Assembly: GCF_029952525.1 (NCBI RefSeq)
Contig: NZ_JASAOF010000012.1
Coordinates: 62,001 to 126,000, forward strand
From: Saccharopolyspora ipomoeae
GTDB lineage: Bacteria > Actinomycetota > Actinomycetes > Mycobacteriales > Pseudonocardiaceae
DNA: 64,000 nucleotides
Reading direction: 5' to 3'
The first letter of the stretch is position 1. The number at the start of each line of letters is the position of its first letter. Shown here piece after piece: positions 21,516-60,988 of the stretch. The position numbers and the translations under genes were made by a program. The notes below the pieces were generated by a model. The model was given only the letters and a program-made list of their open reading frames with translations. It did no database searches and had not been told where the DNA came from.

Positions 21516-22298
21516 ATGGGATCGGGGCGCTGGGACAGCTTCGTCGCGCTGGGAGACAGCTTCACCGAAGGTCTGGCCGATGCCACTGAGGAGCACGACG
21601 TCTACCGCGGCTGGGCCGACCGGCTCGCCGCGCATCTCACCGAGCAGAACCCGGATCTGCGCTACGCCAACCTGGCGGTGCGCGGCAAGCTGATCCGGCA
21701 GATCGTCACCGACCAGGTCCCGCAGGCCATCGCGCTCGAACCCTCGCTGGTCGCGCTGACCGCGGGCGGCAACGACATCATCCGGCCGGGCAGCGACCCG
21801 GACCTGGTGGCCGCGCTCTTCGACGACGCGGTCGCCCGGATCCGCGCGACCGGAGCCGACGTGCTCATCGGCACCGGCTTCGACACCGCGCGCACCCCGG
21901 TCCTCAAGCACGTGCGCGGCAAGGTCGGCACCTACAACTCGCACCTGCGCTCGATCGCCGACCGGCACGGCTGCTACGTCATGGACCTGTGGTCGATGCA
22001 GGTCCTCAAGGACCCGCGCGCCTGGTGCGAGGACCGGCTGCACCTGTCCGCCGACGGCCACCGCCGCGTCGCGCTGCGCGCCTGCTCGGCGCTGGGAGTG
22101 CCCACCACCGAGGACTGGAACGAGCCCTGGCCGGACCTGGACGAGCGCAGCTGGCAGGAGCAGGCCGCCGAGGACATCAAGTGGGCCCGCGAGTACCTCG
22201 CCCCCTGGATCAGCCGCCGCCTCCGAGGAGTCTCCAGCGGAGACGGCCGCACAGCCAAGCGCCCCTGCCTCGAAAAAATGCCCACGAACTGCGGATAA
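21516..22298 (+). CDS. SGNH/GDSL-family hydrolase
   Basis: 260-residue esterase/lipase-like protein without a signal peptide, so probably cytoplasmic. The nucleophile block FVALGDSFTEG puts the catalytic Ser at residue 15. The oxyanion residues are in the Gly of LAVRGK and Asn of TAGGNDI, and the Asp-His pair is in DRLHLSADGH. The longer open frame upstream was rejected because ATG 21516 has AGGGAGG about 8 bases before it. The substrate is unknown. Its TAA stop lies within the hairpin end of a 170-bp dispersed repeat, which likely serves as its terminator. Confidence 0.9.
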   Translation: MGSGRWDSFVALGDSFTEGLADATEEHDVYRGWADRLAAHLTEQNPDLRYANLAVRGKLIRQIVTDQVPQAIALEPSLVALTAGGNDIIRPGSDPDLVAALFDDAVARIRATGADVLIGTGFDTARTPVLKHVRGKVGTYNSHLRSIADRHGCYVMDLWSMQVLKDPRAWCEDRLHLSADGHRRVALRACSALGVPTTEDWNEPWPDLDERSWQEQAAEDIKWAREYLAPWISRRLRGVSSGDGRTAKRPCLEKMPTNCG

Positions 22299-22465
22299 GC
22301 GCCGAAGGCGCTTTCTCTTTCACCACCTGAGCAGCCCGCACCGCCGGGGGTTCTGAGCGGCTTCGTGGCGAGCACGCCGCGACGCCGTGTATCGGCATAC
22401 ATCAGGAGTGGCGCGCGGAGTCCACGGAGCCGCTCAGGTTCCCCCACCCGCACCGCTGAGCAAGG
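22297..22465 (-). repeat. Dispersed structured repeat, long copy A
   Basis: This ~169-bp segment is, on the minus strand, highly similar to 53057-53226 (long copy B). It shares blocks such as GAACCTGAGCG, CCGTGGACTCCG, ATGTATGCC, CTCGCCACGAA, GCGGTGC and GAGAAAGC. It folds as a long imperfect palindrome with apex GTAT-GCCG-ATAC. Its end at 22297-22313 (arms AAGCGCC/GGCGCTT) plus the following TTTCTCTTTC looks like the rho-independent terminator of the SGNH gene. Short derivatives lie at 58589-58650 and 60812-60887. Confidence 0.85.
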
Positions 22466-22491
22466 GGACCAAGGGACAAAGCAATAGAGAA

Positions 22492-22535
22492 GACGAGCGC
22501 TCGGGCGGCTCCCCCGAACCGTCCGAGCGCTCGTC
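22492..22535. terminator. Strong hairpin in SGNH/SARP convergent gap
   Basis: Perfect 13-bp arms GACGAGCGCTCGG (22492-22504) and CCGAGCGCTCGTC (22523-22535). The 435-base gap 22299-22733 contains this, the repeat above and a second hairpin, and no gene. Confidence 0.7.
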
Positions 22536-52990: not shown

Positions 52991-53056
52991 GACCCCGATG
53001 GTACGGGGAAGGGCTTCAGGGCAATCACGACAGGCCGACCGAGCTGATGGTGGTCA

Positions 53057-53226
53057 CCCTGCTTGGCGGTGCGGGTAGCGGAACCTGAGCGCTGCCGTGG
53101 ACTCCGTGCGCCGCTCCTTATGTATGCCAATACGCGGCGTCACGGCGTACTCGCCACGAAAGCGCTCAGAACCCGCGGCGGTGCAGGTTGCTTAGGTGGG
53201 GCACAGAGAAAGCACCTTCGGTGCTT
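53057..53226 (+). repeat. Dispersed structured repeat, long copy B
   Basis: 170-bp element, the inverted counterpart of 22297-22465. Inverted arms TGAGCGCT and AGCGCTCA, GCGGGT and ACCCGC, and an apex GTAT-GCCA-ATAC make it a long imperfect palindrome. The end hairpin AAGCACC-TTC-GGTGCTT (53210-53226), read on the minus strand and followed by TCTCT, lies 9 bases after the HAD gene stop and is its likely terminator. Confidence 0.85.
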
Positions 53227-53235
53227 GCCTGACGG

Positions 53236-53916
53236 TCAGCGCAGCAGATCGCCCACCGCGTCGATCAGGCCGGTCGGGCGTTCGCTGGTCGGAGCGGGGT
53301 CGACGATCGCGACCTCGCACCCGACACCGGCCGCGCCGCCGTCGGCCTCCTCGCTGTCGCCGACCATGAGCGCCTCCTCCGGGGCGACGCCGAGGCGCTC
53401 GCAGGCCCGCAGGAAGATCTTCGGATCCGGCTTGATCACCTCTTCGAGGTACGACAGCAGGAACTCGTCGACGTGCCGGCTGACGCCGAGGCGGTCGAAG
53501 GCCGGGCGGATGTCGAAGGCGATGTTGCTGATCACACCCACCTTCACGCCCTGCTCGGACAACCGGCGCAGCACCTCGGCGGCGTCCGGGTACGGGGTCC
53601 ACTGGTCGGGGTCGATCAGCCGGGCGTAGAGGCCGTGCGCCTGCCGGTCCGGGACGCCGGAGCTGCGCAGGACCTCGACGTAGACCTTGCGGTGCAGCTC
53701 GGGGTCGAGGTCGCGCTTCTCCCACGCGTCCAGGAACTCATCGCCGAGCTCGACGATCCGGCCGGTCGGTGCGGTCATCCGCCGCATGATCTCGGCCTGG
53801 GCGGAGAGGTCGAAGGGGGTTCCGTCGGAGTCGGTGAGGTCGGAGTACCAGGACGGGTTCTCCTCCAGTCGGAACAGGGTGCCGGAGAAGTCGAAGATCA
53901 CCGCTCGCAGAGTCAC
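53236..53916 (-). CDS. HAD-superfamily hydrolase with DxS motif I
   Basis: 226 residues. HAD landmarks: motif I VIFDFSGTLF, motif II VGVISNIAF, motif III Lys in VIKPDPKIFLRA and motif IV LMVGDSEEADGGAAGVG. Motif I has Asp-Phe-Ser instead of the usual Asp-x-Asp, so the general acid/base Asp is missing. This resembles HADs that are not ordinary phosphatases (phosphonatase and dehalogenase groups also lack that Asp), so substrate is open. GTG 53916 lies six bases after a TACCGT box, a probable leaderless start. Confidence 0.88.
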   Translation of the reverse strand: MTLRAVIFDFSGTLFRLEENPSWYSDLTDSDGTPFDLSAQAEIMRRMTAPTGRIVELGDEFLDAWEKRDLDPELHRKVYVEVLRSSGVPDRQAHGLYARLIDPDQWTPYPDAAEVLRRLSEQGVKVGVISNIAFDIRPAFDRLGVSRHVDEFLLSYLEEVIKPDPKIFLRACERLGVAPEEALMVGDSEEADGGAAGVGCEVAIVDPAPTSERPTGLIDAVGDLLR

Positions 53917-57185: not shown

Positions 57186-58571
57186 GTGCCTCCCAAGACC
57201 TCTCGTTCCCGTCCTGCGTTCCGGTGTGCCGACTGCGGCCATGAGGTCGCCAAGTGGGTGGGGCGGTGTCCCGGATGCCAGGCGTGGGGGACGATCGAGG
57301 AGGCCGCTGCCGCCCGGCCCGCGCTGGCGAAGGTCTCCGCCGGGGCGCCGAGCACTCCGGCGCGGCCGATCGCCGAGGTGGACCTCGACTCGGCCCGATC
57401 CGTGTCGACCGGGATCGGCGAGCTGGACCGGGTGCTGGGCGGCGGGATCGTGCCCGGGGCCGTCGTGCTGCTGGCCGGCGAGCCCGGTGTGGGGAAGAGC
57501 ACACTTCTGCTGGAGGTCGCGCACCGCTGGGCCTCCGGCGCCTCCCCCGGCGCTTCGCTGTACGTCACCGGTGAGGAATCCGCAGGTCAGGTGCGCCTTC
57601 GTGCGGAGCGGACCGACTCGGTGCACCCGGAGCTCTTCCTCGGCGCCGAGAGCGACCTGTCCGCGGTGCTGGGGCACGTCGACGCGGTCAAGCCCGGCCT
57701 GCTCATCGTCGACTCGGTGCAGACCGTCCAGTCCCCCGACGCCGACGGCAGCCCGGGCGGGGTGACGCAGGTGCGCGCGGTGACCACGGCGCTGGTGGCG
57801 CTGGCCAAGGAGCGCGGGCTGCCGGTCGTGCTGGTCGGGCACGTCACCAAGGACGGCGCGGTCGCCGGGCCGCGCGTGCTGGAGCACCTGGTGGACGTGG
57901 TGCTGCAGTTCGAGGGCGACCGGCACTCCTCGCTGCGGATGCTGCGCGGCGTGAAGAACCGCTTCGGCCCGTCCGACGAGGTCGGCTGCTTCGAGCAGCG
58001 CGATGACGGCATCGCCGAGGTCCCGGACCCGTCGGGCCTGTTCATCAACCGGCAGGAGGCCGCCGTGGACGGCACGGCGGTGACGGTCATGGTCGAGGGC
58101 AAGCGGCCGCTGCTGGTGGAGATCCAGGCGCTGCTGATGAAGACCGAGATGGCGATGCCGCGCCGCTCGGTGAGCGGCCTGGACTCGGCCCGGGTGTCGA
58201 TGATGCTGGCGGTGCTGGGCAAGCACGGGCACATCCCGACCGGCTCGCACGACGTGTTCGCCGCGACCGTGGGCGGCACCAAGATCGGCGAACCGGCCGC
58301 GGACCTGGCGATCGCGATGGCGGTCGCGTCCTCGCAGACCGGCCGCCCGCTGCCGCCGAACCTGGTGGTGATCGGCGAGGTCGGGTTGGCGGGCGAGATC
58401 CGCCGCGTCAACGGCGTCGGGCGACGTCTCGCCGAGGCCGCCCGGCTCGGCTTCGACCGCGCCCTGGTCCCGCCTGACCCGGGCCCGCTGCCCAAGGGCA
58501 TCAAGGTCACCGAAGTCGCCACGATCAAGGACGCGCTCAAGCTGGTCCGCCGCCGCAAGCAGGAGGACTAG
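57186..58571 (+). CDS. radA: DNA repair protein RadA
   Basis: 461 residues. An N-terminal C4 zinc finger (CADCGH...CPGCQAW) precedes a RecA-like ATPase (Walker A GEPGVGKST, Walker B GLLIVDSVQTV), the RadA signature KNRFG and a C-terminal Lon-like domain (GGTKIGEPAADLAIAMAVASS, GEVGLAGEIRRV). It promotes branch migration in recombination. GTG 57186; TAGCCT (57174-57179) lies six bases upstream with no Shine-Dalgarno, implying a leaderless mRNA. The usual neighbour disA is absent downstream. Confidence 0.96.
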   Translation: MPPKTSRSRPAFRCADCGHEVAKWVGRCPGCQAWGTIEEAAAARPALAKVSAGAPSTPARPIAEVDLDSARSVSTGIGELDRVLGGGIVPGAVVLLAGEPGVGKSTLLLEVAHRWASGASPGASLYVTGEESAGQVRLRAERTDSVHPELFLGAESDLSAVLGHVDAVKPGLLIVDSVQTVQSPDADGSPGGVTQVRAVTTALVALAKERGLPVVLVGHVTKDGAVAGPRVLEHLVDVVLQFEGDRHSSLRMLRGVKNRFGPSDEVGCFEQRDDGIAEVPDPSGLFINRQEAAVDGTAVTVMVEGKRPLLVEIQALLMKTEMAMPRRSVSGLDSARVSMMLAVLGKHGHIPTGSHDVFAATVGGTKIGEPAADLAIAMAVASSQTGRPLPPNLVVIGEVGLAGEIRRVNGVGRRLAEAARLGFDRALVPPDPGPLPKGIKVTEVATIKDALKLVRRRKQED

Positions 58572-58588
58572 GAGCTGTTGATCTCTCG

Positions 58589-58650
58589 CCCTGCGTGGCG
58601 GTGCGGGTGGCGGAGCCTGGGTGGCGGAAGAGAATGCGGCTCCGCCGCAT
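58589..58650. repeat. Dispersed structured repeat, short copy 1
   Basis: 62-bp relative of the long repeats: it keeps the left block CCCTGC.TGGCGGTGCGGGT.GCGGA.CCTG and the right block GTGGCGGAAGAGAAT plus an end hairpin ATGCGG-CTCCG-CCGCAT (58634-58650), but lacks about 95 bp of palindromic core. The hairpin, read on the minus strand, lies just after the stop of the 58663-59250 gene. Confidence 0.75.
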
Positions 58651-58662
58651 GCCTCAACAGCC

Positions 58663-59250
58663 TCAGGGCACGACCTTGAACGGCACGGGTGCGCTGGTGA
58701 TCGAGGTGAGGCGCGCGACGACCTGGTAGTCGCCCGGCGGGACGGGCTTCTGACCTTCGACGGCGCAGCCGGGAACCGAGGTCAGGCCGGACCACAGCAC
58801 GTCGTTGCGGACGGGCTTGCCGGGTTCGAGGACGGGCTGCTCGTTGGTCGACTCGGCGTAGCAGTCGTTGCTGGACCACACGTGCCGTCCGGCGGGAGTG
58901 GTCACCTCGATCTCGCGGAGCATCCGGTTGAGGTCGCGCCCGCAGCGCTGCGGGCCGGTGTTGGTGACGGTGGCGGCCAGTCCGATCCGCTCACCGGCCC
59001 GGAAGGCGGGCTGCCCGACCTCGGCCGCGACGCGCACCACCTCGTCGGGACACGCCTGCGGCGCGGTGTCGGCGGCGATCGCCAGAGGCGCGCCCGCCGC
59101 CTGCGGGACCGGTTCGGGCTGGCCGGGCCCGGCGATCAGGGCGATCACGCCCCACCCGACGAGTCCGACCGCTAACAGGGCCGCCGAGACCGCCACGGCG
59201 CGGCGACGCCAGTACACCGCGGGTGGCAACGGACCGTTCGGATCAAACAC
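58663..59250 (-). CDS. Membrane-anchored protein, Rv3587c-like
   Basis: 195 residues: one TM helix (AVAVSAALLAVGLVGWGVIALIAG, residues 18-41) and an extracytoplasmic domain with four cysteines and a beta-sandwich-like pattern (FRAGERIGLAATVTNTGPQRCGRDL, HVWSSNDCYAES). Position and topology match the conserved membrane protein Rv3587c that lies beside disA/radA in mycobacteria. Function is unknown. GTG 59250; TACTGT ends six bases upstream, a leaderless-type start. Confidence 0.82.
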   Translation of the reverse strand: MFDPNGPLPPAVYWRRRAVAVSAALLAVGLVGWGVIALIAGPGQPEPVPQAAGAPLAIAADTAPQACPDEVVRVAAEVGQPAFRAGERIGLAATVTNTGPQRCGRDLNRMLREIEVTTPAGRHVWSSNDCYAESTNEQPVLEPGKPVRNDVLWSGLTSVPGCAVEGQKPVPPGDYQVVARLTSITSAPVPFKVVP

Positions 59251-60290: not shown

Positions 60291-60799
60291 TGGCCGACGC
60301 GCTGGTCTGCCACTTCGACGACGAGACCGAGTCGAGCCTGCGCGCGCTGCGGGAACGGCTCGGCGAGGCGGGGATCGACGTCCCGGACGAGCGCCCGAGC
60401 GTGACGATGGCCCGGGCCGGGAGCATTCCCGCCGCCGCCCGCAAGGCGCTGCGCGGCGAGCTGGAGCTGCTGTCGATCCCGGACCTGTGGCTGCACGCCC
60501 TCGGCACGCTGCCCGGCGACGAGCGGATGCTGCTGCTGGGCGCGGTCGTCGACACCGAGCTGCTGGCGGTGCACTCGGCCGTGCACGACGCGCTGGCGGG
60601 CAAGGTGAAGAACCCGTCGGCCTACTACTTCCCCGGCGCCTGGATCCCCTACTGCGCGCTGGCGCGCGGTCTCGACACCGACCAGCTCGCCCGAGCGTTC
60701 ACCGCCCTCCTGCCGCCCGAACCGGTCCGCGCGGCGGTGCGGGAGATCAGCGTCGTCGACACCAGGACCGGAGACGCGGAAACCCTCCTGACGCGCTGA
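60290..60799 (+). CDS. 2'-5' RNA ligase-like (2H phosphoesterase fold) protein lacking one motif His
   Basis: 169 residues, start overlapping the mutY stop (TGATG). It resembles actinobacterial 2'-5' RNA ligase family proteins: an N-terminal FDDETESSLRALRERLGEAGI, then the position of the first HxT motif, here RPSVTMARAG with Ser in place of His. A second block ELLAVHSAVHDAL lies where the second H motif falls, and YYFPGAWIPYCALARGL matches the conserved PHCTLA-like region. Loss of the first His suggests altered or no phosphodiesterase activity. Tight coupling to mutY hints at a nucleic-acid role. Confidence 0.75.
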   Translation: MADALVCHFDDETESSLRALRERLGEAGIDVPDERPSVTMARAGSIPAAARKALRGELELLSIPDLWLHALGTLPGDERMLLLGAVVDTELLAVHSAVHDALAGKVKNPSAYYFPGAWIPYCALARGLDTDQLARAFTALLPPEPVRAAVREISVVDTRTGDAETLLTR

Positions 60800-60811
60800 G
60801 AAATGTTGAGG

Positions 60812-60887
60812 ACCTGCGTTGCTCAGCGGTGCGGGTAGCGGAACCGGTGCCTCAGGTGGTGGAGGAGGATTCGGCTCCGCCACATCC
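60812..60887. repeat. Dispersed structured repeat, short copy 2
   Basis: 76-bp relative of the long repeats: TGCTCAGCGGTGCGGGTAGCGGAACC joined to CTCAGGTGGTGGAGGAGGAT and an imperfect end hairpin (GGATTCGGCTCCGCCACATCC region), again without the palindromic core. It lies between the 2H-type gene and the ABC ATPase gene. Confidence 0.75.
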
Positions 60888-60988
60888 ATTGACCGCCCCC
60901 ATGTCGGGCAGATCAATACGAGTTGCCGATCAGCCCTGCAGCGGCCACTTTGGACGTGCACTGCCTCCACGAGACCGGAGGAGGGTTC

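Follow-up and report, generated by a model that had tools for sequence, protein, structure and literature searches.

A probable IS5-type MITE with a covarying core at gene stops in Saccharopolyspora

Our data indicate that two inverted sequences in a 64,000-nucleotide stretch of the Saccharopolyspora ipomoeae genome (contig NZ_JASAOF010000012.1, positions 62,001 to 126,000; hereafter the window) belong to a large family of short mobile repeats with a conserved core. The repeat is very probably a MITE moved in trans by IS5-family transposases, whose CTAG-type targets place copies at stop codons. The MITE reading is well supported, and conservation of the fold is supported. We found no account of this repeat in the open-licence literature at the level of titles and abstract openings.

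Anatomy and distribution of the repeat

Copy A occupies 22297..22471 on the + strand, and copy B occupies 53051..53226 on the - strand. The two are identical at 151 of 177 aligned positions (85%, E 5e-50) in a window of 71% GC. This confirms the inverted match of about 170 bp reported by the first-pass annotation, and the paired differences that it quoted for the stem and the end hairpin are exact in the sequence. The structured cores lie at 22332..22462 (+; covariance-model match E 6.5e-26, G000:C3:84332-84462) and at 53060..53190 (-; E 5.4e-26, G000:C3:115060-115190). The end hairpins lie at 22297..22313 in copy A (+; AAGCGCC-GAA-GGCGCTT, then TCTCTTTC) and at 53210..53226 in copy B (-; AAGCACC-GAA-GGTGCTT). 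The window also contains two short derivatives on the - strand that have lost the core. One, at 58568..58666, keeps its outer inverted repeat (CTGA-gg-CTGTTGA ... end hairpin ... TCAACAG-ctc-CTAG); the other spans 60796..60890 with approximate limits.

Read from left to right, the element consists of an outer end, the end hairpin, and a linker, then a palindromic core with a copy of the word GCACCGCC on either side, and finally the second outer end. The stem of the end hairpin varies in sequence and keeps its pairing in most copies, and the linkers are of several types. The two words together with what lies between them span 117-120 in most copies; the exceptions range upward from 75. Trimmed cores vary in length by single bases and measure 129-134 nt in 55 of 65 copies and 117-156 nt overall. 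In the better-kept copies (L016, L077, L112, and the short derivative at 58666-58568), the ends read CTAG-nnn-(C)TGTT ... AACA-nnn-CTAG. Terminal inverted repeats are present in these four and in copies L417 and L419 of the genome G003, and are unrecognizable in copies A and B and in many others. The modelled element is thus like a MITE in being short (~175 bp), free of coding sequence and repeated (122 matches), and in carrying terminal inverted repeats in its better-kept copies.

In the organism's own genome (G000, 6.63 Mb in 47 contigs), a 22-base core word has 111 matches with up to 3 mismatches and none in a reversed control, so the resemblance of copies A and B is not due to chance. The covariance model, applied to 150 of 11064 first-look candidates, gave at least 122 matches in this genome at E<=0.001. 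The element was found by BLAST in 21 of 22 genomes of the genus, 17 of which have at least about 38 matches each; the blastn and covariance-model searches that the first-pass annotation proposed have therefore yielded many further copies. At family level, BLAST detected the element in 37 of 150 genomes (7 within the genus and 30 outside it) and in 12 of 46 genera, and a pattern scan named Saccharopolyspora, Amycolatopsis, and Saccharomonospora among the matches listed. A class-level covariance-model survey, in which 11 first-look candidates were scored per genome, gave one genome of 296, that of the organism itself, among the matches listed, and absence outside the family is thus weakly tested. 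Searches of plasmid and phage collections with copy A gave nothing at E 1e-5.

Covariation and strand preference in the core

The first-pass annotation argued from two copies that the fold of the repeat, not its sequence, is under selection. Covariation in 55 diverse copies supports this claim, although hairpin-templated repair could explain part of the signal. Of 305 profile hits, 266 were full length and 233 of these were distinct. A cut at 85% identity left 68; the core could be trimmed out of 65 of them, 62 of these cores fell within 100-145 nt, and 55 were aligned after 7 outside 129-134 nt were left out. We scored a fixed structure of 34 pairs, drawn from the same alignment, by a shuffle test. 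Both sides had changed in at least one copy at 25 of the 34 pairs, and 92.4% of cells pair. The covariation score was 0.451, versus 0.137 in shuffled alignments and 0.046-0.104 for slid structures, and on all five measures 0 of 500 shuffles reached the observed values. Helix 2 is weaker (78.4% of cells pair) and has neighbouring G-A and A-G oppositions in 25 of 55 rows, which could be tandem G-A pairs. The loop between helix 1 and helix 2 reads GAGGAC on its left side in 37 of 55 rows and GAG[TC]AC in 15.

We also asked which strand the fold favours. Raw single-strand G-U counts were set aside because each single-strand consensus fold favours the G-U pairs of its own strand. Among pairs common to the folds of both strands, the + strand has 50 G-U versus 13 A-C, and in the fixed structure it has 86 G-U versus 23 A-C cells; these cells are not independent, and two pairs, 32-105 and 34-103, account for 42 of the 86. 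On a tree, G-U resolved to a Watson-Crick pair 21 times and A-C twice, and G-U arose from a Watson-Crick pair 35 times versus 19 for A-C, a weaker contrast than that of the cells. As read from these alignments, the G-U excess would favour selection on a + strand RNA. In most tandem settings, the + strand of the element is antisense to the neighbouring genes.

Insertion sites, targets, and candidate partners

To compare filled and unfilled sites, we matched 41 distinct copies from the own genome with 2.0 Mb of a near relative, G006. Both flanks were found there for 17 copies: at 5 of these sites G006 carries the element as well, and at the other 12 it does not. At L016 the insertion is clean: CCCA-CTAG-[element]-CTAG-GCGG corresponds to CCCACTAGGCGG in G006, and CTAG is duplicated. 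L047 shows a TTAA duplication in the same kind of comparison. A clear duplication is seen at just these 2 of the 12 unfilled sites, the remaining sites being decayed; L419 of G003 has TAA on both sides. The comparison of flanks with empty sites, also proposed in the first-pass annotation, thus bears out its suggestion of a mobile element resembling a MITE, with unfilled sites, target duplication, and IS5-like ends all in evidence. At the G006 site orthologous to L013 (C14 near 1380367), a different inverted-repeat element, GTGGACAGTTTTAGCCA ... TGGCTAAAACTGTCCAC, occupies the position.

Both long copies in the window adjoin the stop of a gene that runs into the end hairpin, as first described. 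At copy A this is the SGNH hydrolase gene (21540..22298, +; name from the first-pass annotation, 3' part read), whose stop TAA at 22296-22298 overlaps the hairpin. At copy B it is a gene at 53236..53916 (-) whose sequence suggests a HAD-like hydrolase; its stop at 53238-53236 is 9 bp from the hairpin. The SGNH gene has a close homologue in 19 genomes, of which, judged by eye, 8 carry a recognizable element at site A and 1 (G010) a remnant. In four of the 19 that lack the element (G016, G004, G018, and G021; loci L141, L143, L144, and L147), unrelated long palindromes stand at this site. Four more have neither an element nor such a palindrome, and for the remaining two, G009 and G013, the stretch read starts too far downstream for a judgement. 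A strong inverted repeat, GAGCGCTCGGGCGG ... CCGTCCGAGCGCTC, lies just downstream of copy A at 22492-22535 and is also found in close relatives. Site B separates the HAD-like gene from its neighbour (presumably cysS), and inspection by eye of 22 genomes showed the element there in the own genome, a remnant that has lost the core in G006, and none in the remaining 20. The flank at site B appears replaced, with no clean duplication. Upstream of the presumed cysS, relatives that lack copy B carry CTTGACGACAA, a sequence missing in G000 and G006 (window 53000-53060; L116, L118, L119, L120); insertion may therefore have replaced a promoter element.

Target preference can account for the position of the copies at stops. 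In the 2.0 Mb of G006, with genes called by our own codon-usage script, CTAG occurs 452 times: 48 in 1.69 Mb of coding sequence, 314 in 0.30 Mb of intergenic sequence, and 90 in the 8.7 kb at called stops. In 14 of the 301 convergent pairs, the two genes overlap by just these four bases. We examined 11 unfilled sites, leaving out L013 because another repeat occupies it, and scored 30 bases at each. CTAG was present at 5 of the 11 (0.067 expected) and a YTAR word at 6 (0.15 expected), leaving 5 without YTAR. Nine of the 11 lie within 15 bp of a called stop, a zone that makes up 2.5% of the sequence, and 10 lie within 25 bp, a zone that makes up 12.1% of non-coding bases. The 29 copies in this stretch of G006 comprise 12 in convergent, 16 in tandem, and 1 in divergent settings (gene pairs: 301, 1154, and 301), and none lies within a called gene. 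With a second version of the gene caller, the 23 full-length distinct copies away from edges divide into 6 convergent, 16 tandem, and 1 divergent, so that the two versions of this crude script disagree on the convergent share. Because TA and CTAG targets are scarce in the coding DNA of these GC-rich genomes and concentrated at stops, target choice is the most economical reason for the position of the element, simpler than the installation of terminators.

As candidate partners we considered DUF4096 insertion sequences, which we take to belong to the IS5 family (group names IS427/IS1031). They are present in 17 of the 22 genus genomes searched, and gave 0 matches in the own genome and likewise in G005, G008, G011, and G016; the partner there would thus be lost, unassembled, or of another type. 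Fifteen of 30 DUF4096 loci have readable ends, and 7 of the 15 carry CTGTT near an end; the other readable ends are GTGCCTGTC, GCGTGTC, GGTCCTAACAG, GTTCCTAACA or GGGGTCNTTTCA. These ends mostly adjoin TA or TNA words.

In G003, some element ends match that of a resident insertion sequence. Six copies taken from this genome have cores that agree at 93 to 100% of positions (L418 and L420 fully), so some copies are recent. Two of the six, L417 and L419, start with GGRGTCGTTTCAGA and have the left end GTCGTTTCA, and L418 and L420-L422 have GACTAAAACT in place of the expected left end. The TAA flanks of L419 sit within GGACTAAAACTGGG, a word that also flanks the insertion sequence L414. In a comparison with 12 insertion sequences (24 ends) by simple shuffles, all four tested G003 ends (L419 both, L417 left, L420 right) matched the L414 end best, with p values of 0.013, 0.003, 0.003, and 0.003. 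The ends of copy L016 from the own genome had no significant match among the 24 sampled ends (p 0.375 and 0.658), which speaks against this type of partner, as do the GACTAAAACT left ends in G003 and the missing DUF4096 matches in the own genome. Copies L418-L422 and L414 share a flanking word, GGACTAAAACTGGGA, apparently itself part of another repeat; four copies have it where the left end is expected.

Taken together, we propose that the repeat is a non-autonomous element of ~180-200 bp, mobilized in trans, probably by IS5-family transposases. Its outer inverted repeats are short and of variable sequence (nnnCTGTT in several copies, the GGGGTCGTTTCAGA type in G003), and they enclose a subterminal hairpin and a core of ~118-120 nt that folds into a long interrupted stem. 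The transposase would target TA-centred words (CTAG, TTAA, TNA), and since CTAG is rare inside genes and dense at stops, copies would accumulate at gene 3' ends. The core may be selected as a + strand RNA, our best guess at its role being an effect on the folding or processing of mRNA 3' ends, and the end hairpin might serve as an occasional terminator.

Orientation, alternatives, and related systems

The first-pass annotation also suggested that the element installs terminators, a claim that is weakly supported. In copy A, the end hairpin followed by TCTCTTTC fits the pattern of an intrinsic terminator in a pattern scan, a GC hairpin and then a T-rich run after the stop. It is one of two terminator-like sites in 501 bases (0.3 in shuffles), and these bases contain no promoter-like site. 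We classed 199 of 233 distinct full copies, 32 others being near a locus edge and 2 without genes. Seventy lie between convergent genes, 93 lie in tandem pairs with the right end at the gene stop, 31 lie in tandem pairs with the hairpin end at the stop, 5 are divergent, and 0 are inside a gene. The hairpin end is approached by a gene in 101 of the 199 and the other end in 163; the stop lies within 30 bp in 37 of the 101 left-hand genes and in 115 of the 163 right-hand genes. The hairpin-free end thus faces the gene stop in 93 versus 31 tandem pairs, with a p value of 2e-8 that is too small because the copies include orthologues. What stands of the claim is the terminator-like hairpin of copy A; in 93 of 124 tandem pairs, it is the other end that faces the stop.

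These data also bear on whether the repeat is a terminator or insulator module that benefits the host, kept by selection with mobility secondary. We consider this improbable. In 194 of 199 classed copies, one or both neighbouring genes point toward the element, which such a module would explain together with the many convergent settings, the terminator-like site of copy A, and the unrelated palindromes at site A in four genomes. Nevertheless, the T-tailed hairpin follows the gene in a minority of tandem pairs, CTAG/YTAR targets explain the positions, and 12 of 17 insertions have no counterpart in a near relative. An intergenic palindrome of high copy number near gene 3' ends also resembles a REP/RAYT-type repeat, moved as a single-stranded hairpin by a Y1 (HUH) tyrosine transposase, and the annotation had considered a REP-like element. 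Y1_Tnp (PF01797) gave 0 matches in the own genome, and 9 of the 22 genus genomes have one. It was not found in G000, G001, G002, G003, G006, G008, G011, G014, and G017, among others, which have at least 17 to 42 element matches each. The element moreover has inverted ends and duplicates its target; the missing Y1 gene and the duplication largely refute this origin, to which we give hardly any credence.

Strong covariation could point instead to a stationary family of structured regulatory RNAs, and open frames that cross both window copies could point to a coding repeat; we regard either as most improbable. Presence and absence at orthologous sites, with target duplication, speak against a stationary family, and a search of Rfam 15 with 801 bases around copy A returned nothing above a gathering score (best overlap, 20.6 bits versus a threshold of 197). 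A protein-coding repeat was rejected since core lengths that vary by single bases keep no reading frame. The covariation itself may have a mutational origin. Template switching in palindromes is a known process by which one arm is repaired from the other, and it could create paired changes in a fold that is not selected; the core is a long quasi-palindrome, and inherited changes in related copies are counted repeatedly. However, such repair should erase the loop between helices 1 and 2, which stays unmatched (a continued helix pairs 14-43% of cells), and the excess of G-U over A-C is not favoured by repair at the DNA level. We therefore hold this account to be unlikely, though less so than those above. 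Somewhat more plausible, but still tentative, is that the core forms a structured RNA family of its own, under selection as a + strand RNA, that has spread through the Pseudonocardiaceae in a SINE-like manner on the ends of resident IS5-family elements, its terminal repeats being re-matched to successive partners.

On the preferred reading, a MITE moved by IS5-family transposases, a rare TA-centred target may passively steer a transposon in a GC-rich genome to stop codons, which would explain in a simple way the neat seating of repeats at gene 3' ends. With hundreds of copies in a dozen genera, the family is a natural set for testing what a conserved MITE fold does on mRNA ends in actinomycetes. 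A transcriptome study of S. erythraea reports 190 candidate intergenic ncRNAs (PMC3610266).

Among known systems, the IS5-family MITEs driven by DUF4096 insertion sequences are like the present element in being short and without a gene, in having short inverted ends and TA/TNA-type duplications, and in that the ends match a resident DUF4096 element in one genome, G003. The present element differs in having a covarying core common to several genera and outer ends that vary between genomes. ERIC, also named RU-1, resembles it by description as a small mobile intergenic repeat, and occurs in a different host group. RU-1 of Enterobacteria is a small mobile intergenic repeat of 127 bp (PMC2759123), and according to a review, mRNA decay can be changed by ERIC copies that lie at gene 3' ends (PMC10969869). 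The same review describes the Correia elements (NEMIS) of Neisseria as MITEs with >120 copies in N. gonorrhoeae, found mainly upstream of genes and carrying promoters; RNase III cuts transcripts that contain them (PMC10969869). The copy number per genome is similar; judged by these descriptions, Correia elements are set apart by their upstream position and promoters, whereas the present element lies at gene 3' ends and has no promoter-like site near copy A. SPRITE of Streptococcus pneumoniae is outlined there as a repeat family with a terminator-like hairpin (PMC10969869), a feature shared by the present element, in which the hairpin is subterminal and mostly misplaced for ending the neighbouring gene. 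Finally, prokaryotic MITEs are characterized in the same review as typically AT-rich (PMC10969869), a picture with which the present family, with its covarying core in a window of high GC, contrasts.
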